From positions 1,867,001 to 1,931,000 of the forward strand of contig NC_008531.1 of assembly GCF_000014445.1 (NCBI RefSeq): a DNA stretch of 64,000 bases, in the 5' to 3' direction. This DNA is from Leuconostoc mesenteroides subsp. mesenteroides ATCC 8293. GTDB taxonomy: Bacteria; Bacillota; Bacilli; Lactobacillales; Lactobacillaceae. The translations under genes and the position numbers were made by a program. Shown in pieces: positions 4,782-46,394 of the stretch. How positions within the stretch are numbered: position 1 is the stretch's first letter; each line of letters starts with the position of its first letter. The notes beneath the pieces were generated by a model, which saw only the letters and a program-made list of their open reading frames with translations, ran no database searches and was not told the origin of the DNA.

Positions 4782-4809
4782 ACGTGCAACAACTTATTCA
4801 CGTTAAAAG
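4782..4809 (+). repeat. ACGTG/CACGT leader element, copy A
   Basis: ACGTG at 4782-4786 and CACGT at 4799-4803 form an inverted repeat with a 12-base loop, followed by TTAAAAG. Related copies occur at 9115, 9832, 12331 and 13151, always just before a gene. Confidence 0.6.
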
Positions 4810-4832: not shown

Positions 4833-4856
4833 ATGATTGCAAATAAAAATAACTAA
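4833..4856 (+). CDS. Seven-residue leader ORF upstream of GNAT1
   Basis: ATG follows GGAGTCGCAT and encodes MIANKNN before TAA 4854-4856. The second GNAT gene has a matching leader, MTASKMN, at 9164-9187, in the same place relative to the ACGTG/CACG element and to a following hairpin. The arrangement resembles the leader peptides of translationally attenuated resistance genes (cat, erm). Expression is not proven. Confidence 0.5.
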   Translation: MIANKNN

Positions 4857-4930: not shown

Positions 4931-5479
4931 ATGTTTATAGGAAAAAAAGTAAAACTATCACACTATCATGACGGCGACGGTAAAAAATTTGCTGAATGGC
5001 AGTGGGATGATGCGTTCAATAACCCATTATCAGATGATATGATTCACCCCCATACTGCTGAGGACTGGGAAAATATATTTAGACGTTCATCTAAAAGCAA
5101 AGAAAATGTTGAATTTACTGTTAGAAAAACAGAGAATAATGAATTGGTCGGATTTGTTGCCTTGTTTGACCTCAACATACGCAATCATACTGGCGAATTA
5201 GCGATTGGTTTTCCTAAAAAGGAAGATCGTTTAAAAGGTTATGGATCTGAAACCTTGAGCTTAATCTTAGATTATGGTTTTAACAATTTGAATATGCATA
5301 AAATTAAGCTCACCGTCTATCCATTTAACACACCAGCCGTGAAAGCCTACAAAAAGAATGGATTTACCAAAGAAGGTACCTTTAAAAACGAAGTCTTCTA
5401 TGATGGAAAATGGGTCGATATTGACCATTACGCCATCTTCCAAAATGACTGGTATACTTCCCAAAATGAGTATCAATGA
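4931..5479 (+). CDS. GNAT acetyltransferase, RimJ/RimL type (GNAT1)
   Basis: The 182-residue protein has the GNAT fold of the RimJ/RimL subgroup: an NELVGFVAL beta strand, an acetyl-CoA loop at about residues 95-110 (FPKKEDRLKGYGSE), and the C-terminal NNLNMHKIKLTVYPFN followed by AVKAYKKNGF. Such enzymes acetylate protein N-termini, polyamines, amino acids or drugs; the substrate cannot be read from the sequence. It is about 70% identical by eye to GNAT2 at 9252. It has its own promoter, leader ORF and hairpin, suggesting inducible expression, and a terminator 12 bases after the stop. Confidence 0.85.
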   Translation: MFIGKKVKLSHYHDGDGKKFAEWQWDDAFNNPLSDDMIHPHTAEDWENIFRRSSKSKENVEFTVRKTENNELVGFVALFDLNIRNHTGELAIGFPKKEDRLKGYGSETLSLILDYGFNNLNMHKIKLTVYPFNTPAVKAYKKNGFTKEGTFKNEVFYDGKWVDIDHYAIFQNDWYTSQNEYQ

Positions 5480-9114: not shown

Positions 9115-9142
9115 ACGTGCAAATACTTATCCACGATAAAAG
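9115..9142 (+). repeat. ACGTG/CACG leader element, copy B
   Basis: ACGTG (9115-9119) and CACG (9132-9135), followed by ATAAAAG, match copy A at 4782 in sequence, loop length and distance to the leader ORF. Confidence 0.6.
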
Positions 9143-9163: not shown

Positions 9164-9187
9164 ATGACTGCAAGTAAGATGAACTAG
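9164..9187 (+). CDS. Seven-residue leader ORF upstream of GNAT2
   Basis: ATG follows CGGAGTTGCATT and encodes MTASKMN before TAG. It matches the GNAT1 leader MIANKNN at four of seven positions and in spacing. Translation is not proven. Confidence 0.5.
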   Translation: MTASKMN

Positions 9188-9251: not shown

Positions 9252-9791
9252 ATGTTTATAGGTAACAATGTAAAACTATCGCATTACCACGAAGAAGATG
9301 GGAAAAAGTTAGCTAGTTGGCAATGGGACGAAGATTTTGTAACGCCGTTAGCTAGTGATATGATTCACCCTTATACCGCGGAAGATTGGGAAAAAATATT
9401 TAGGGATGCTTCCAACAGCTACGAAAATGTTGAATTTACTATTCGAAAAGTTAGTGATGATAGTTTAGTTGGGTTTGTCGATCTATCTGATATCAGTGTA
9501 CGCAATCATTCCTGCGAACTTGGGATTGGCTTCCCCAAAAAGGAAGACCGATCAAAGGGATATGGCACCGAAGCTCTATCCCTAATATTGAGTTACGGTT
9601 TTAATAATCTCAATATGCACAAAATTAAGCTCTCAGTATACCCCTTCAACATTGGCGCTGTAAAAGCCTACACTAAAGCGGGATTCGTCAAGGAAGGCAC
9701 AGCCAAAAATGAAATTTTTTACAACGGCAAATGGGTTGATATAGACTATTATGCGATTTTCCAAGAAGACTGGTATGCAAGGCAACAATAA
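9252..9791 (+). CDS. GNAT acetyltransferase, RimJ/RimL type (GNAT2)
   Basis: The 179-residue paralogue of GNAT1 shares MFIG..VKLSHYH, WQWD, MIHP, ENVEFT, FPKKEDR.KGYG, NNLNMHKIKL and KWVDID. About 70% of residues are identical by eye, while the flanking genes differ, so a single-gene duplication that carried the leader is likely. Substrate unknown. It is the first gene before the small-gene row; its stop codon is followed by the first GCACTC/GAGTGC hairpin, which has no T run, so read-through into the next gene is plausible. Confidence 0.85.
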   Translation: MFIGNNVKLSHYHEEDGKKLASWQWDEDFVTPLASDMIHPYTAEDWEKIFRDASNSYENVEFTIRKVSDDSLVGFVDLSDISVRNHSCELGIGFPKKEDRSKGYGTEALSLILSYGFNNLNMHKIKLSVYPFNIGAVKAYTKAGFVKEGTAKNEIFYNGKWVDIDYYAIFQEDWYARQQ

Positions 9792-9800
9792 AAAATAAAA

Positions 9801-9815
9801 GCACTCATTGAGTGC
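9801..9815 (+). repeat. GYACTC/GAGTRC intercistronic hairpin, copy 1
   Basis: GCACTCATTGAGTGC is a perfect 6-bp stem with a 3-base loop, 9 bases after the GNAT2 stop codon and followed by ATACATA. Related copies lie at 11744, 12665, 12923 and 13130. Confidence 0.7.
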
Positions 9816-9831
9816 ATACATAAACAAGTTA

Positions 9832-9866
9832 ACGTGTATGACTCACGTTAAAAGAATTAGGAGAAT
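9832..9866 (+). repeat. ACGTG/CACGT leader element, copy C, with AATTAGGAG site
   Basis: ACGTG (9832-9836) and CACGT (9844-9848) with a 7-base loop are followed by TAAAAG and AATTAGGAG, the ribosome binding site of the gene at 9871. The same AATTAGGAG block recurs before 12716. Confidence 0.65.
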
Positions 9867-9870
9867 GATT

Positions 9871-10212
9871 ATGGATGAGAATGGTAAAATTGTACCTGTT
9901 GAGATTAAAGGTTGGAACTGGGGCGCCTTCATGTATAACATATTTTGGGGAATTGGTAACAAAACTTATTTACCTTTACTATGCCTAATCCCTTTATTTA
10001 ATTTCATTTGGATCTTTGTTTGTGGATTTAAAGGCAATGAATGGGCCTGGCAAAAAGGTGATTACACAGACGTCGAAACATTTAAAGCTGTCCAGGCCAC
10101 ATGGAATCGTGCTGGATTGGTGCAGTTTATTTTGACAATCGCCATATTAGTACTATACTTTTTACTTTTCGTGGTTCTTTTCTCATCAGTCTTAAATCAA
10201 AATAACTATTAG
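9871..10212 (+). CDS. Small membrane protein of the WNWGAF family
   Basis: The 113-residue protein starts at ATG 9871 with TAGGAGAATGATT in front; upstream in-frame codons lack such a site. It has a WNWGAFMYNIFWGIGNKTY motif, a hydrophobic helix (LLCLIPLFNFIWIFVCG), a GNEWAWQ motif and a second helix near the C-terminus. Proteins with these motifs are common in lactobacilli and are sometimes loosely annotated as ribonuclease-G-associated, but I know no proven function. It is the first gene after GNAT2 in the small-gene row. Confidence 0.75.
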   Translation: MDENGKIVPVEIKGWNWGAFMYNIFWGIGNKTYLPLLCLIPLFNFIWIFVCGFKGNEWAWQKGDYTDVETFKAVQATWNRAGLVQFILTIAILVLYFLLFVVLFSSVLNQNNY

Positions 10213-10310
10213 TAGTCTCATCCTATTTGATGTGCTTGCACAGAGAAAAATCAACAACAAATTTTAAACCCGTCAATAACTCGTTTGAAATTTATAGGAA
10301 CTGAAATCAA

Positions 10311-10811
10311 ATGATGACCACTCAAGACAATATTCTTTTAAAATCCGCAATAAAAATGAGACATGAAAAAGAATTTAAGGCGTCCAACCGTATCTTAAAA
10401 AAATTAGATGCCAAATATCCGCTTAATGCCAATATTCAATATCAATATGCTTGGAGCTTCGATATTCTTGGACAAGAAAGAGAAGCTGTCCCTCACTACT
10501 ATGCAGCCATTGATAACAATGGGCTAGAATCTGTCGATTTAGAAAACGCCTACTTAGGTTTAGGTAGTACTCTACGATCAATAGGTTCTTATGATGAATC
10601 ATTAGATATTTTATCAAAAGGTACGGAATTATTTCCAACAAATAATGCTTTAAAAGTTTTCAAAGGGATGACACTCTATAATTTAAAACGCTTTAAAGAA
10701 TCCTCAACAATTTTACTGCAATGTCTTATTGAGACAAGTGAAGACACTGATATTAAATCATATGCTAAGGCGCTAGGTCTATACTCACAAGATCTAGACC
10801 AGACATTTTAA
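10311..10811 (+). CDS. Tetratricopeptide repeat (TPR) protein
   Basis: The 166-residue protein has helical TPR-like pairs: EFKASNRILKKLDAKYPLN, AWSFDILGQEREAVPHYYAA, GLGSTLRSIGSYDESLDIL and KGMTLYNLKRFKESS. No signal peptide or membrane helix is seen. TPRs mediate protein contacts; no partner can be named. ATAGGAACTG precedes tandem ATG codons at 10311. The gap after GNAT2's small neighbour (10213-10310) lacks the repeat elements seen elsewhere in the row. Confidence 0.78.
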   Translation: MMTTQDNILLKSAIKMRHEKEFKASNRILKKLDAKYPLNANIQYQYAWSFDILGQEREAVPHYYAAIDNNGLESVDLENAYLGLGSTLRSIGSYDESLDILSKGTELFPTNNALKVFKGMTLYNLKRFKESSTILLQCLIETSEDTDIKSYAKALGLYSQDLDQTF

Positions 10812-10843
10812 ATAATTATCAAGCATCGCAATTAAAAAAGCCT

Positions 10844-10915
10844 TAATGGGAACAAAGCATGAAAATAAAACTGGTAAATAGCTGCTGTTCCATTACAAAT
10901 AACTTGCTGCTTTAA
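10844..10915 (+). promoter_or_regulatory. Hairpin and 18-codon leader ORF before the DUF4352 gene
   Basis: TAATGGGAACA (10844-10854) can pair with TGTTCCATTA (10886-10895) with one bulge. The left arm contains GGGAA, the ribosome binding site of a short ORF at 10859-10915 (MKIKLVNSCCSITNNLLL). The ORF ends 30 bases before the ATG at 10946. It may be a regulatory leader; coding is unproven. Confidence 0.35.
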
Positions 10916-10945
10916 TGCGCATATAAAATGCAAAGAAGAAAAAAT

Positions 10946-11521
10946 ATGAGCAGAAAAAATATAAAAACACGTTCCAAAAATAAAAGTTTTTATCAAAGTA
11001 TTTGGATTACCACGCTAATAATAGTAATTGTCGTCATTATTGGCTTTTGGCAAGTTTATACTAGGTATTCTGGTGATTTGGTTAAAAAAGTTGATACAAC
11101 CTCATCCAAAAACACTTTAAAACCGCAGTCAATTTTTAAAGTTGGTGAGACAGCAGAATATAAAGATATTCAGTTTAAAGTAAATGACTTCAGTTTCATA
11201 GATGGTTACCCCAAAATTGATAAATTAGCTGCTGGAAATCAATTTGTTGTTGTCAATATGACCATTACCAATAACAGTAATAAAAAATTTGATTATGATT
11301 CATACTTTTTTCACCTTGATGACAATGGTAAACAAACAGATACAACGGAGTCTCCTTACAACGTAACTGCTTCTTTAGACAGCGGCACTTTGCGTCAAGG
11401 TGAATCAACGACGGGAAACCTTGTGGGACAAGCAAATACAAATCATCAACTAAGGTTAATTTACCAACAAGATACTAATCTTAACAAAGGAAGAATAACT
11501 TTTAAACTGAATCAGGAATAA
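10946..11521 (+). CDS. Membrane-anchored DUF4352-like protein
   Basis: ATG 10946 has AAAGAAG about 9 bases upstream and is preferred over ATG 10928. The 191-residue protein has a basic N-terminus, one membrane helix (IWITTLIIVIVVIIGFW, about residues 19-35) and an extracellular beta-rich domain with FKVGETAEYKDIQFKVNDF, GNQFVVVNMTITNNSN and LRQGESTTGNLVG. This is the DUF4352 pattern, an immunoglobulin-like fold found in Gram-positive exported proteins. Function unknown. It lacks a lipobox cysteine, so it is anchored by the helix. Confidence 0.8.
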   Translation: MSRKNIKTRSKNKSFYQSIWITTLIIVIVVIIGFWQVYTRYSGDLVKKVDTTSSKNTLKPQSIFKVGETAEYKDIQFKVNDFSFIDGYPKIDKLAAGNQFVVVNMTITNNSNKKFDYDSYFFHLDDNGKQTDTTESPYNVTASLDSGTLRQGESTTGNLVGQANTNHQLRLIYQQDTNLNKGRITFKLNQE

Positions 11522-11626
11522 GGTTTAAAACTGAAAGTAAAAAACAGCTCACCTTTCCCTTGCTACTCTGACTACGTATCAAGTGGACTATATTAAAACA
11601 CTAATAAATATCGTCCAGCACAACGC

Positions 11627-11659
11627 TATAATTAGTTTTAATGCCTATGCATTAAAACT
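11627..11659 (+). promoter_or_regulatory. -10 box followed by a perfect 11-bp hairpin
   Basis: TATAAT (11627-11632) is followed by AGTTTTAATGC (11634-11644) and its exact complement (11649-11659) around CTAT. A transcript starting near 11639 would begin inside the hairpin. No good -35 box is seen. The rest of 11522-11740 shows nothing else I recognise. Confidence 0.4.
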
Positions 11660-11743
11660 TCTTGCTTGACCTCTACTTTGACGAGAAAACAGAAAGATAT
11701 AGCAAAATTTATGACTTCATGGCGTACTTCGTTATACCTGCGT

Positions 11744-11755
11744 CACTCGAGAGTG
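11744..11755 (+). repeat. GYACTC/GAGTRC intercistronic hairpin, copy 2
   Basis: CACTCGAGAGTG, a 5-bp stem with a 2-base loop, lies 33 bases before the 50-residue gene at 11789. It is the most divergent copy of the motif. Confidence 0.45.
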
Positions 11756-11788
11756 CTGTTTTGAAAACATATAACTTAGGAGTATTTT

Positions 11789-11941
11789 ATGGATTTATTA
11801 ACAACGTTCCCAATGGCTATGAGTGGACTAACATTTTTAATACTAAGTAAAGATAAGAAAAGTAAAAAGTATCGTGTGGCGGGAATAATGATGTTATTGG
11901 CAAGTTTCATTAGCTTTGTGACTTACTTTGTCTATAAATAG
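11789..11941 (+). CDS. 50-residue membrane protein
   Basis: ATG follows TTAGGAGTATTTT, a good ribosome binding site. The 50 residues have two hydrophobic stretches (LLTTFPMAMSGLTFLIL and VAGIMMLLASFISFVTYFV) around a lysine-rich turn, KDKKSKKYR. The same plan, two helices with a basic turn, is shared by the small genes at 12054, 13191 and 13605, so these may be distant paralogues. Function unknown; small stress proteins, immunity proteins or toxins are possible. Confidence 0.65.
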   Translation: MDLLTTFPMAMSGLTFLILSKDKKSKKYRVAGIMMLLASFISFVTYFVYK

Positions 11942-12049
11942 AAATCCCCCTACCATCAGTATGTGACTTAAAACGAAAAAAACTGCTTATTTTAACAAGG
12001 GGATAAACTCTATGTGTCGCTTCCCTATTGCATAACAGCGGGGGAATAA
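11942..12049 (+). promoter_or_regulatory. Leader with anti-Shine-Dalgarno block and short ORF
   Basis: ATCCCCC near 11943-11950 is complementary both to the GGGGAT before a seven-codon ORF (12012-12035, MCRFPIA) and to the GGGGGAAT before the gene at 12054. The two pairings exclude each other. This could switch which ribosome binding site is free. Confidence 0.35.
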
Positions 12050-12053
12050 CAAT

Positions 12054-12287
12054 ATGCAAAAAGCCACTATTTTTAGAATAATTGCCACAGTAGGAATTTT
12101 AGGAACAGTCCTATATGAAATTGTGACTAATACCAACACGTTATATATAAAAATTGTCCAAGCAGTTTTTATGGTAATACTATGGACTGCTCTTGCGGTT
12201 GATAGATACCAACATAATAAATCGAAGAGAGAACTAAAAAAAGATTTATTTTTAGTGGGGTGTTTGCATTACCAAGCATTGCAATAA
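12054..12287 (+). CDS. 77-residue membrane protein
   Basis: GGGGGAATAACAAT precedes the ATG. Two hydrophobic helices (IFRIIATVGILGTVLYEIV and IVQAVFMVILWTALAV) are followed by a charged stretch, RYQHNKSKRELKKD. It shares the two-helix plus basic tail plan with its neighbours at 13191 and 13605. The last residues, LFLVGCLHYQALQ, look unlike the basic tail and could come from a late frameshift, but nothing in the other frames proves this. Function unknown. Confidence 0.6.
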   Translation: MQKATIFRIIATVGILGTVLYEIVTNTNTLYIKIVQAVFMVILWTALAVDRYQHNKSKRELKKDLFLVGCLHYQALQ

Positions 12288-12330
12288 TATCCTTTTTTAG
12301 ATAATTAGCCTAGCCATATTAGCAAATACT

Positions 12331-12365
12331 ACGTGCAGAACCACGTTAAAAGCGTAATTGGGGAT
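12331..12365 (+). repeat. ACGTG/CACGT leader element, copy D, with AATTGGGGAT site
   Basis: ACGTGCAGAACCACGT (12331-12346) is followed by TAAAAG and AATTGGGGAT (12356-12365), the ribosome binding site of the gene at 12371. The copy at 13151 is identical through TTAAAAG and again at TAATTGGGGAT. Confidence 0.75.
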
Positions 12366-12370
12366 TAAGG

Positions 12371-12646
12371 ATGACAAAACATAAACAAGAATTAAAGACG
12401 CAAATAGTAGCTTATGGTTGGCAACTATTTATACCTGAAAATACAATCGTTATGGATAATGACCAGGGTAACATAGCCATTGAGGATAGTTCTGATAATT
12501 TTAGGGGTGGACCATTTATAGTGTTAAAAGTTAGCGAAAATGAAGTTACAGTAGAATCTAGCGGCATCTTTGACCAAGGCGTCTCAATTACGTTAGACAA
12601 AAAGATTGTCATTAAACGTCGTCCTGACATTGAAATTAATGATTAA
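12371..12646 (+). CDS. 91-residue cytosolic protein, unknown
   Basis: The protein is soluble and acidic, with DQGNIAIEDSSDNFRGGPF and alternating hydrophobic residues that suggest a small beta-barrel (VLKVSENEVTVESSG, ITLDKKIVIKRR). I do not recognise the family. It begins ATGACAAAACA, the same first 11 bases as the unrelated gene at 13191, and both have the same upstream element. This is the only clearly soluble member of the row besides the 52-residue gene at 12970. Confidence 0.6.
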   Translation: MTKHKQELKTQIVAYGWQLFIPENTIVMDNDQGNIAIEDSSDNFRGGPFIVLKVSENEVTVESSGIFDQGVSITLDKKIVIKRRPDIEIND

Positions 12647-12664
12647 GTGACCTCTAAATAAAAA

Positions 12665-12679
12665 GTATTCACAGAGTAC
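12665..12679 (+). repeat. GYACTC/GAGTRC intercistronic hairpin, copy 3
   Basis: GTATTCACAGAGTAC has a 6-bp stem with one G-T pair and ACA loop, followed by TTACATAC. AATTAGGAG downstream is the ribosome binding site of 12716, like that before 9871. Confidence 0.65.
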
Positions 12680-12715
12680 TTACATACCGCAGAATAAATT
12701 AGGAGCATTATTATA

Positions 12716-12922
12716 ATGAAAAGAACTACACTCTGGTTAAGTATTACATTGCTGATTGCTTTACTAACGATCTATACAGTCTACCAAAATGGGCTTGACT
12801 TTAGTTTTTCTCTAACCATATCTAAAAATGCGGCTTCAGCAAATGGCTCAATGGCGTTTTTATTTACTTTGCTGACTATTTTTAGTGGCATAAAATATCT
12901 AACGTGTAGATTTACTAAATAA
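12716..12922 (+). CDS. 68-residue membrane protein
   Basis: TTAGGAGCATTATTATA precedes the ATG. Two helices (LWLSITLLIALLTIYTV and MAFLFTLLTIFSGIKYL) flank a polar loop, NGLDFSFSLTISKNAASANG. The family is not recognised. The stop codon is followed directly by the next GCACTC/GAGTGC hairpin at 12923, so genes and repeat elements alternate with no spare sequence. Confidence 0.6.
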   Translation: MKRTTLWLSITLLIALLTIYTVYQNGLDFSFSLTISKNAASANGSMAFLFTLLTIFSGIKYLTCRFTK

Positions 12923-12964
12923 GCACTCACAGAGTGCTTACATACATTAAAATTAATTGGGGAT
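12923..12964 (+). repeat. GYACTC/GAGTRC hairpin copy 4 with AATTGGGGAT site
   Basis: GCACTCACAGAGTGC (12923-12937) is followed by TTACATAC and then AATTGGGGAT (12955-12964) before the ATG at 12970. The ACGTG/CACGT part is missing in this copy. Confidence 0.7.
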
Positions 12965-12969
12965 GAGAC

Positions 12970-13128
12970 ATGAAAACACAACTGATAAATGGTTACTGGA
13001 CAGCTACGAGTTTTACAGATAAATTAAACACTGCTTTGGCTCAACTAGAAGCGGACGGGCACGAAATCGTTGAAGTACAATATAAAACGCCCGTAGTCTT
13101 CTATTCTGCTATAGTAATTTACAAATAA
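12970..13128 (+). CDS. 52-residue Cse60-like protein
   Basis: The start is supported by AATTGGGGATGAGAC. The small soluble protein has a TDKLNTALAQLEADGHEIVE helix followed by VQYKTPV and YSAIVIYK. The pattern of an amphipathic helix, an I-x-x-V-Q-Y strand and a final S-A-x-x-I-Y strand resembles the roughly 60-residue Cse60 family of Firmicutes (named from a Bacillus sporulation gene, function unknown). The assignment rests on pattern only. It lies between two copies of the repeat element. Confidence 0.6.
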   Translation: MKTQLINGYWTATSFTDKLNTALAQLEADGHEIVEVQYKTPVVFYSAIVIYK

Positions 13129-13129
13129 T

Positions 13130-13144
13130 GTACTCACAGAGTAC
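13130..13144 (+). repeat. GYACTC/GAGTRC intercistronic hairpin, copy 5
   Basis: GTACTCACAGAGTAC is a perfect 6-bp stem, starting two bases after the stop codon of the 52-residue gene. It is followed by GTATATAC, which leads straight into the ACGTG/CACGT element. Confidence 0.75.
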
Positions 13145-13150
13145 GTATAT

Positions 13151-13185
13151 ACGTGCAGAACCACGTTAAAAGTATAATTGGGGAT
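13151..13185 (+). repeat. ACGTG/CACGT leader element, copy E, with AATTGGGGAT site
   Basis: ACGTGCAGAACCACGT (13151-13166), then TAAAAG, then AATTGGGGAT (13176-13185), just before ATG 13191. With copy 5 of the hairpin it forms the complete composite spacer. Confidence 0.75.
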
Positions 13186-13190
13186 GACAT

Positions 13191-13430
13191 ATGACAAAAC
13201 AACCATTTAAAATGATGAAAACTATAGGTGCGGTTGCCCTGATTGTAATGGCATTGCTGAATTATGCCAACTTTCAGTTTAACTATACAAAATACAGCGC
13301 TCTTATTGTGACATTAATGATGCTGGCTCTTGGATTTCAGAGCTACAGTGAGAAGAAAAAATTCAATTCAGATATTGCTTTTGTCACGATTGCTGGCCTA
13401 GCGACGTTATATATTTTTTTCGTTAACTAG
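13191..13430 (+). CDS. 79-residue membrane protein (DUF3953-like)
   Basis: The gene begins right after the complete composite repeat. Helices at about residues 10-25 (IGAVALIVMALLNYA), 35-50 (SALIVTLMMLALGFQ) and 62-78 are separated by a basic turn, SYSEKKKF. The order and the GFQ-Y-EKKK turn resemble DUF3953 proteins of Bacillus, which have no known function. Probable relatives lie at 12054 and 13605. Confidence 0.62.
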   Translation: MTKQPFKMMKTIGAVALIVMALLNYANFQFNYTKYSALIVTLMMLALGFQSYSEKKKFNSDIAFVTIAGLATLYIFFVN

Positions 13431-13451
13431 AGCATTAAAGGGAATGAAATT

Positions 13452-13481
13452 ATGAAACAAAGGGACGTACCTTTTCGATAA
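13452..13481 (+). CDS. Nine-residue leader-like ORF (MKQRDVPFR)
   Basis: AAAGGGAATGAAATT precedes ATG 13452 and the ORF stops at TAA 13479-13481. It is in the same frame as the gene that follows, with a further in-frame TAA at 13485, so it may instead be the broken start of a longer gene. A hairpin follows at 13510-13557. Confidence 0.3.
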   Translation: MKQRDVPFR

Positions 13482-13509
13482 ATATAAAAAAGTGGTGTAA
13501 TTTCAAACA

Positions 13510-13557
13510 AGTTAGCTGATGACATTGACGAGATTCATATGCTCATCATTGCTAACT
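13510..13557 (+). promoter_or_regulatory. Strong hairpin before the gene at 13605
   Basis: AGTTAGCTGATGA (13510-13522) pairs with TCATCA (13543-13548) plus GCTAACT (13551-13557), leaving a 2-base bulge and a 20-base loop. There is no T run. Confidence 0.5.
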
Positions 13558-13604
13558 CCGTCAACAAAATAGAAGATAAAAATAAAGAAAGAGAAAATGT
13601 AAAT

Positions 13605-15068: not shown

Positions 15069-15079
15069 TAATCTATAGT

Positions 15080-15205
15080 TTTCTAGGGTTCCGCTATAAT
15101 AATAGGTCTGGTCCAAGAGAAAACATACAATGATTACATTGTACACACGGACGGATAAAAGCCTAGGAGATATTTCTTAACGAAATATTTCCTAGGCTTT
15201 TTAAT
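15080..15205 (+). promoter_or_regulatory. ykkC-class riboswitch with intrinsic terminator
   Basis: The conserved blocks appear in order: CTAGGGTTCCG (15083), GGTCTGGTCCAAGAG (15105), a TACAATG/CATTGTA stem-loop, then ACACGGACGGATAAAAGCC and TAGGAGA. CTAGG at the 5' side can pair with CCTAG at 15162, closing the aptamer. The same 3' segment is also the left arm of a terminator (AAAAGCCTAGGA 15157-15168 with TCCTAGGCTTTT 15190-15201 and a T run), so ligand binding should allow read-through. Members of this class sense guanidine, ppGpp, PRPP or nucleoside diphosphates; the subtype is not resolved here. Confidence 0.82.
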
Positions 15206-15224: not shown

Positions 15225-15596
15225 ATGGAATTAATACTTTTGCCAGAACAACTCTCGGTTTTTCAAATCGAATCATTGGAACAATTGGATTTATCAATGA
15301 AGCCTCTGTTTATTGGCTCTACTGCAGATGAGCTTTCTATCGTTGCTCCAACAAAGAGTGTGCCAACAAAAACAATAAACCAAGAAGATGGTTGGCGCGC
15401 ATTAAAAATCAATGGTGTTTTAGATTTCAGTTTAGTTGGCATTTTATCTAAGATAGCAACTTTGTTAACCGAAATTGACGTCAGCATATTTGCAATATCA
15501 ACGTACGATACTGATTATATTTTAATAAAAGAAACAAATCTCTCTAATTCAATAGACTGTCTGCGTCAAAACCAATATGTAGTTTCAGAAAAATAA
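15225..15596 (+). CDS. ACT-domain protein under riboswitch control
   Basis: The 123-residue protein reads as an N-terminal beta-rich half (MELILLPEQLSVFQIESLEQL, then PLFIGSTADELSIVAP) followed by an ACT half (GVLDFSLVGILSKIATLLTE, DVSIFAISTYDTDYILI). This is the small ACT_7/CASTOR-like family, thought to bind amino acids. There is no catalytic domain. AAGGAGAATACACT precedes the ATG. The ykkC-class riboswitch directly upstream is the only visible control. It is monocistronic as far as can be seen. Confidence 0.8.
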   Translation: MELILLPEQLSVFQIESLEQLDLSMKPLFIGSTADELSIVAPTKSVPTKTINQEDGWRALKINGVLDFSLVGILSKIATLLTEIDVSIFAISTYDTDYILIKETNLSNSIDCLRQNQYVVSEK

Positions 15597-46163: not shown

Positions 46164-46377
46164 AAAAAATCCACAGCGCACAAGTAGCAGCCATGGATCC
46201 CAATTAATTGCAATCTATAACATAGCACCCCGCTTACGCGACAGTCCAACGATTTTTCACCGATTGGCCCAGCTACTTGGTGTCACAGCACCAATGCTTC
46301 GGCTACATCCCCTTTAACCTGTTTCATTGTGCCTGTAAGCACTCCGCAAGCGACTAATGTCAGCAGCAACCTCTATG
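46164..46377 (-). promoter_or_regulatory. Lysine riboswitch (L box) with terminator, upstream of alr-asd
   Basis: Reading the minus strand from 46377: CATAGAGGTTGC opens the P1 stem, followed by the GGTTAAAGGGGATGTAGCC block with GCCGAAGC, then GCTGGGCC, GTGAAAAATCG and GGACTGTC, and a closing CTATG at 46221-46225. This order and the CTGGG, GACTGTC pair are the lysine riboswitch pattern. A terminator stem with T run lies at 46164-46198 (ATCCA/TGGAT on minus). Lysine binding should favour termination, lowering alr-asd. Confidence 0.85.
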
Positions 46378-46394
46378 ATTCTTAAATTGTTATT

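Follow-up and report, generated by a model that had tools for sequence, protein, structure and literature searches.

The small-gene row and its spacers

The window, a stretch of 64,000 nucleotides (nt) from Leuconostoc mesenteroides subsp. mesenteroides ATCC 8293 (contig NC_008531.1, positions 1,867,001 to 1,931,000), carries between 9.8 and 13.4 kb a row of small plus-strand genes with two recurring spacer modules. We designate them P1 and P2. P2 consists of ACGTG, a loop, CACGT and then TTAAAAG, and lies immediately 5' of a ribosome-binding site (RBS). P1 is a hairpin of 6 base pairs (bp) with a loop of 3 nt, behind which TACAT or a similar sequence stands; as far as the GYACTC type is concerned, it usually is located within 15 nt 3' of a stop codon. 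The initial annotation saw here unrelated genes behind one composite spacer, possibly gene cassettes or an expanding array. Genes and modules are listed in Table 1.

Table 1. Spacer modules and genes of the row and its surroundings (aa, amino acids; ORF, open reading frame; dN/dS, ratio of nonsynonymous to synonymous substitution rates).
Feature	Position	Strand	Remarks
P2, ACGTG-(12)-CACGT + TTAAAAG	4782..4809	+	followed by 7-codon leader ORF MIANKNN (4833-4856) and GNAT gene (4931-5479)
P2, one basal pair broken, reads CACGATAAAAG	9115..9142	+	followed by leader ORF MTASKMN (9164-9187) and second GNAT gene (9252-9791)
P1, GCACTC-ATT-GAGTGC	9801..9815	+	then ATACATA
P2, ACGTG-TATGACT-CACGT + TTAAAAG	9832..9854	+	then RBS
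113-aa GWNWGAF membrane protein gene (F0)	9871..10212	+	commonest gene behind P2 in the Leuconostoc loci analysed
50-aa gene (F2)	11789..11941	+	no P2
P2, ACGTG-CAGAAC-CACGT + TTAAAAG	12331..12352	+	
91-aa gene (F16)	12371..12646	+	median dN/dS 0.22
P1, GTATTC-ACA-GAGTAC + TTACATAC	12665..12679	+	no P2 behind
68-aa membrane protein gene (F31)	12716..12922	+	median dN/dS 0.24
P1, GCACTC-ACA-GAGTGC + TTACATAC	12923..12937	+	no P2 behind
52-aa gene (F8)	12970..13128	+	median dN/dS 0.19
P1, GTACTC-ACA-GAGTAC + GTATATAC	13130..13144	+	abuts P2
P2, identical to the 12331 copy	13151..13172	+	
79-aa membrane protein gene (F68)	13191..13430	+	too few copies for dN/dS

P2 was present at all five places for which it had been claimed, i.e., in the row at 9832, 12331 and 13151 and ahead of the GNAT genes at 4782 and 9115. 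As had been noticed, no base differs between the 12331 and 13151 copies from ACGTGCAGAACCACGT through TAAAAG, and ATGACAAAACA opens both genes; the two forms of the RBS, AATTGGGGAT and AATTAGGAG, were also recovered. For P1 the picture is mixed. Four of the asserted sites (9801, 12665, 12923 and 13130) exist, whereas at 11744 no match was obtained even with two mismatches. TTACATAC, which was said to follow P1, is exact at 12665 and 12923 only and gives way to ATACATA or GTATATAC elsewhere. Several gaps of the row contain the modules, yet neither precedes the genes at 10311 (TPR), 10928 (DUF4352) and 12054, as read by eye. P1 and P2 also occur separately: P1 stands alone at 12665 and 12923, P2 at 12331.

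The repeated modules are real and both exceed the shuffle expectation in the window. On both strands P1 has 8 matches versus 1.51 expected, a number reached in none of 100 shuffles; CACGTTAAAAG with at most one mismatch is found 6 times versus 1.77 expected, which was reached in 1 of 100 shuffles. In the whole genome the exact P2 pattern has five copies, four of them in the window, and the reversed pattern, used as a control, has none.

Distribution of P2

That four of the five exact copies lie within 8.4 kb might be taken as a sign of local duplication or of a neutral short repeat, and the initial annotation had considered a spacer confined to this place to be just that. A search of genomes for P2 gave a different result: it is found in Leuconostoc, Weissella and beyond. 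In Leuconostoc 51 exact P2 sites are spread over 16 of 19 genomes, with none for the reversed control. With a covariance model and a limit of E≤0.05, all 19 genomes had matches, the best of each genome having a rough E-value of at most 8.4e-4. P2 sites occur family-wide in 34 of 251 genomes and 11 of 40 genera; two further genomes were matched by the control only. A covariance model applied with stricter filters to the order yielded 20 of 295 genomes at E≤0.001. Local duplication alone is contradicted by the scatter of further copies over 16 of 19 genomes and over phages, and likewise by the preferred distance to start codons and the compensatory changes described below; we consider it hardly credible.

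Named records with P2 belong to Leuconostoc, Weissella, Fructobacillus, Convivina, Dellaglioa, Streptococcus, Lactococcus, Enterococcus and Lactovum; from these searches 80 of 100 stretches of named records and 80 of 90 viral stretches were examined. The same searches also returned clearly unrelated chance matches in other phyla. Among 197 genomes assigned to Streptococcus on account of identical flanks (L206 and L359), 18 have a match, and 10 of the 19 distinct sites are followed by an RBS plus start codon. Streptococcus matches of the form ACGTGCCGCGAACCACGTTAAAAG, apparently at the end of a coding region, were discarded as chance matches. Singletons in four genomes (G156, G214, G224 and G230; loci L081, L080, L077 and L079) equally look like chance, with no RBS and start behind them.

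P2 is tied to translation starts and covaries like an RNA hairpin

An RBS plus start codon follows within 45 nt at 158 of 228 distinct exact P2 sites, compared with 678 of 5000 random positions in the same loci. The spacing is narrow: at 141 of the 228 sites the start codon is found 15-23 nt after TAAAAG (random positions, 169 of 5000). For 118 of the 174 P2 sites with an RBS, an open frame of ≥55 codons on the same strand ends no further than 80 nt away, compared with 887 of 5000 random positions; at 36 sites no such frame ends within 160 nt upstream.

Among sites with an RBS the loop varies from 5 to 13 nt and mostly ends with GAWY; TAAAAG is nearly invariant. Complementary variants of the stem exist, i.e., ATGTG/CACAT, ACGTC/GACGT, ACGAG/CTCGT and ACATG/CATGT, and the ACGTC form is shared by three genera, viral contigs and phage A2. 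The covariation search used 96 sources, and its alignment comprises the best 150 of 158 matches; the seed alignment of the model holds 73 of 75 sites offered from 89 sites with distinct loops, L291 and L184 having been left out as probable chance matches. In 140 distinct rows 98.4% of 685 cells are paired, and two-sided changes affect four of the five pairs (13 such cells). Four measures of covariation were as high in none of 500 shuffles, a fifth (pair types) in one. Stem registers that were slid pair to at most 58.5%.

Thus, P2 is most likely an RNA hairpin, because compensatory changes occur at four of five stem pairs while the length of the loop varies. Comparing sequences, we regard the RNA nature and the place of P2 as well supported. 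A DNA operator would be the obvious alternative, i.e., an inverted repeat bound by the regulator of an accessory-gene regulon, since ACGTG/CACGT are nearly invariant inverted repeats before many genes. A loop of 5-13 nt argues against a DNA dimer site; the peaks of the half-site distance at 6 and 11 nt are about half a helical turn apart. Further, both half-sites change jointly to other complementary pairs, the position is tied to the RBS and the nearly invariant, single-stranded TAAAAG is outside of the repeat. An operator therefore appears unlikely.

Folding predictions place P2 in the best fold of two out of four stretches, 9793-9873 (z -2.89) and 12320-12375 (z 0.73, not superior to shuffled sequences). 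Since the hairpin by itself is weak, P2 probably has a bound partner. Readings as ANTAR, CsrA or preQ1 elements were dropped for misfits of loop size, motif or spacing. A form of P2 with five A, ACGTGCCAAGCGTTCACGTTAAAAAG (L384-L403), had been considered as a separate cassette-end hairpin. At 13 of its 19 distinct places an RBS and a start codon follow within 50 nt, and it is consequently a P2 subtype. At some row ends this subtype has no recognisable gene behind it.

Unrelated genes behind P2 and their turnover

The claim that the same spacer precedes unrelated genes holds: 183 distinct proteins encoded behind P2 were grouped into 71 families, of which 43 are singletons. The gene rows compared and the neighbour counts below derive from a simple ORF caller applied to 34 chosen stretches. 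Many of the products are small membrane proteins, some are phage and restriction proteins; we take others to be DUF4352-like or Ltp-like lipoproteins and DUF805-like, SemiSWEET-like and TM2-like proteins, names which beyond the Pfam matches are presumptive. A distant relative of the 52-aa protein (27% identity) is encoded behind P2 in Lactococcus cremoris. Ten families were tried for dN/dS, four of which had too few members; using only pairs with dS 0.1-2.5 (11 of 66 in the 113-aa family), the Leuconostoc medians are 0.06-0.34 in five families and 0.53 in the sixth. Five of the six families with enough members look conserved at the protein level. Models of defence systems gave two weak matches (E 0.0026 and 0.0072).

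Among Leuconostoc species the genes have different neighbours in most copies of the loci compared. Seven copies of the 52-aa gene have seven different neighbour pairs, and 14 copies of the 113-aa gene have 11. Several blocks of DNA homology start and stop at or near P1 or P2: window 12322-12945 recurs at another chromosomal place of genome G018, 12330-12686 in G001, 12716-12945 in G002, 12944-13152 in G014 and 13175-13462 in G010. A counter-example is block 11963-12646 in G016, the ends of which are not at modules. In G018 the flanks of the locus are 94% and 96% identical to the window, yet blastn of the 20 kb around it gave no match to the 50-, 68-, 52- and 79-aa genes. A stretch with the 91- and 68-aa genes, the former apparently broken, lies at a distance of 1.59 Mb when measured along the contig and of 0.44 Mb in the opposite direction if the contig is circular. 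A base-exact empty site was not seen in the loci compared, and a plasmid search with window 12322-12945 gave no match.

These observations bear on the cassette idea. In its strict form a site-specific recombinase would move gene cassettes by recognising the P1-P2 composite, like attC or the single-strand hairpins of IS200/IS605. Homology blocks bounded by P1 or P2, units with changing neighbours in most loci compared and the G018 locus with its displaced gene stretch are what one would then predict. Integron cassettes likewise are small, unrelated genes with hairpin spacers in exchangeable units. However, no recombinase, in particular no tyrosine recombinase of the IntI kind, was detected among the 19 window proteins scanned (2.9-15.6 kb), the rest of the genome not having been searched. 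Unlike a cassette end, P2 is placed by RBS and start codon, covaries as RNA, occurs without P1 and at 36 of 174 sites has no open frame ending close upstream. Even the subtype which resembles a cassette end has an RBS plus start behind 13 of its 19 places. The ends of the blocks vary, some being at ATG, some inside P2, some elsewhere. In attC sites the core GTTRRRY is paired with RYYYAAC; the tail of P2 reads GTTAAAAG, which misfits this core, and by eye no partner of the CTTTTAAC type is present. Of the cassette or expanding-array idea the turnover of gene-plus-spacer units consequently stands, and a dedicated recombination system is improbable.

Several side observations concern the row and its surroundings. 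The stretch 11943-12029, 3' of the 50-aa gene, is found again in L103, where it follows an unrelated 89-aa ORF. On the 5' side of the 50-aa gene, 11640-11774 matches the end of F17, another gene of the arrays, and may be a gene remnant. Both GNAT genes have the 7-codon leader ORF with its own RBS between P2 and the acetyltransferase gene, and a further leader ORF, MTAIRKN, directly follows P2 of L031 in another Leuconostoc genome; possibly, these leaders are translational attenuators. Rows of such small genes often are near the end of an apparent fatty-acid operon (L104, L118, L129, L130, L132 and L134), the genes of which we presume to be acc and fab. The end of this operon is a possible insertion hotspot with contents that differ per species. 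Elsewhere in the window a Guanidine-I riboswitch (15072-15171, 85 bits) lies upstream of an ACT-domain ORF at 15225, which is not an evident guanidine exporter, and a lysine riboswitch is on the minus strand at 46215-46383 (73.5 bits).

P1 and the TACAT sequence

When P2 is intercistronic it may be accompanied by P1. A P1-like hairpin is present at 26 of the 118 P2 sites behind an open frame, compared with 1.3 on average in shuffles and with 5 in a control stretch, and at 4 of the 36 sites without a same-strand frame nearby. TACAT is found in 24 of those 26. The P1 stem varies by lineage (GCACTC/GAGTGC, GCCACC/GGTGGC, CCCGC/GCGGG, ACCGC/GCGGT); TACAT is constant. P1 occurs in Leuconostoc, Fructobacillus, Weissella, one Enterococcus and at 12 of 67 distinct viral sites, and at none of the 19 distinct Streptococcus P2 sites. 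It is often located behind an A-rich run (e.g., window 9795-9815) and thus resembles an intrinsic terminator on the opposite strand. P1 was also considered as CIRCE, the HrcA operator with the consensus TTAGCACTC-N9-GAGTGCTAA, and rejected because its arms are separated by 3 nt and other lineages have other stems.

Unpaired UACAU is the cleavage site of B. subtilis MazF/EndoA (PMC3997798). This permits a more daring proposal, i.e., that P1-UACAU-P2 is a toxin-programmed expression module which makes horizontally shared genes a stress regulon. Toxin freed under stress would cut polycistronic messages between P1 and P2 and leave a P2-headed message for each accessory gene. A PemK/MazF-family gene is present in all 19 Leuconostoc genomes searched; the one copy examined, from L. 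citreum, has B. subtilis EndoA (4mdx) as its best PDB match and adjoins an ORF resembling alr. In Streptococcus the family is patchy (10 of 40 genomes). The absence of TACAT from 19 of 19 distinct Streptococcus P2 sites is consistent with this, if weakly so, and phylogeny alone could be its cause. We consider a toxin-programmed module distinctly unlikely; if it existed, the accessory genes would form a stress regulon under the control of toxin cleavage.

P2 in phages

With a 37-nt P2 query and E up to 10, matches were obtained in 144 phage records, and in 130 of these the match covered 80% or more of the query; most are from Streptococcus (90), Lactobacillus (24), Lactococcus (10) and Lacticaseibacillus (9). 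The 80 viral stretches examined contain 72 distinct P2 sites, 48 with an RBS. Downstream of 26 of these 48 an integrase gene is encoded on the same strand, at a median distance of 836.5 nt. P2 is positioned ahead of int in phages TP-J34 (between orf3 and ltp) and A2 (between cI and ORF22) and in bIL310 (between orf3 and orf2). Viral contigs of 13-16 kb are probably phage satellites, to judge by their size.

The ltp gene of TP-J34 has been described as a probable moron which the prophage transcribes (Ali et al., 2014; PMC3952083). Phage records also suggest another function, since A2 carries an annotated terminator of the preceding gene, cI, over P2, and an annotated stem-loop of TP-J34 overlaps the start of P2. 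As a terminator P2 would be peculiar: the stem is just 5 bp long, and what comes after it is UUAAAAG instead of a U-run (in A2 a run of seven T is located further on). Moreover, 36 of 174 sites with an RBS have no same-strand frame ending within 160 nt upstream which could be terminated. A terminator is very unlikely. A study of 2015 on cis elements of TP-J34 reportedly found a monocistronic ltp transcript and, by rapid amplification of cDNA 5' ends (5'-RACE), a weak promoter.

Relation to known systems

The initial annotation knew of no described system of this form in lactic acid bacteria. This is only partly safe. A search with 4227 Rfam models in gathering and permissive modes gave nothing at the window elements, and none reached the gathering score in 12 other loci; the sequence of the element was not found as text in any of 5.39 million papers. 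A candidate RNA from 2010, Lacto-int, could be P2. It occupies one table line, 'Lactobacillales, phages' (Weinberg et al., 2010; PMC2864571), has no Rfam number there and scores '?', '?' and 'n' in three columns, the first two of which we interpret as RNA and cis-regulation. The taxon range is that found here for P2, and the name hints at an integrase neighbourhood, such as that of 26 of 48 viral P2 copies with an RBS. The likeness is one of range and name; P2 may be this candidate. The table line of PMC2864571 contains no sequence, structure, chromosomal arrays or gene turnover, and our literature search found Lacto-int named in no other paper. If both are the same, then P2 is a named, little-described motif, to which chromosomal spread, place, covariation, the P1 partner and turnover are added here.

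Other systems share individual properties. In the nin region of lambdoid phages short conserved boundary stretches around the RBS separate exchangeable small genes. P2 is similar in its RBS placement between exchangeable genes; the nin boundaries are in other phages and, to our knowledge, are not covarying RNA hairpins. Phage morons bring their own expression signals, e.g., ltp of TP-J34 with P2 directly before it; the P2 hairpin also precedes many unrelated chromosomal genes and is not described in the available part of PMC3952083. The action proposed for P2 below resembles that of the Firmicutes gapA operon and ermC-type stabilisers, in which an intercistronic cut and a structure near the RBS protect the downstream message (PMC3997798). 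These are gene-specific, whereas P2 is one sequence common to unrelated genes across genera.

A proposed travelling cis-acting RNA element

The sequence and place of P2, the covariation of its stem, its wide distribution, the unrelated genes downstream and the changing neighbours of genes with their spacers are directly supported. On this basis our best reading is that P2 is an RNA element of translation initiation or of mRNA processing and stability which travels with accessory genes, as opposed to integron-like cassettes; the mechanism we infer. Specifically, P2 would act in cis as a conserved RNA hairpin in the region of translation initiation and would mark accessory, moron-like genes of Lactobacillales, and P1-UACAU-P2 would be a processing and insulation point. 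We assign to this a probability of about 0.5.

The element would comprise a 5-bp stem, a variable loop, the 3' tail UAAAAG and then the Shine-Dalgarno site, and the genes so marked would reside on chromosomes, in phages and in satellite-like elements. Because most P2 copies are just 3' of a same-strand open frame, accessory genes may mostly be read within longer transcripts. Between two genes a cut in the single-stranded UACAU would separate the messages. P1 would protect the 3' end of the upstream one, and P2, probably with a bound partner, would determine how well the downstream gene is translated and how stable its message is. A gene which carries P2 and an RBS of its own along, or inserts 3' of an existing pair, would be expressed at its new place. 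The shared spacers would provide short homology for an exchange of units by ordinary recombination.

Several points weigh against this proposal. An RBS plus start is missing at 70 of 228 exact P2 matches, of which some are chance matches in coding sequence and others seem to be true copies that lack a clear gene. The alignment used for covariation had been fitted to the model, which favours the latter, and related rows are not independent, i.e., the count of changes overstates independence. The bare hairpin is weak and absent from the best fold of 13126-13193 and of one viral copy. No P1 was detected at 92 of the 118 P2 sites behind an open frame, and TACAT is present at none of the 19 distinct Streptococcus sites. 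The nearness of integrase genes is not specific for sites with an RBS, since it also applies to 10 of 24 viral copies without one. Effects on transcription, cleavage and translation are inferred, and no trans-acting partner of P2 was identified.

If the element acts in this manner, it would provide a single handle on the expression of moron and cargo genes in starter and food bacteria and in their phages, including at least one superinfection-exclusion gene of dairy phages, ltp. P2 can serve as a search key for small accessory genes which annotation possibly has overlooked. Beyond this, it suggests a natural route by which small genes may swap genomic places and yet stay translated.

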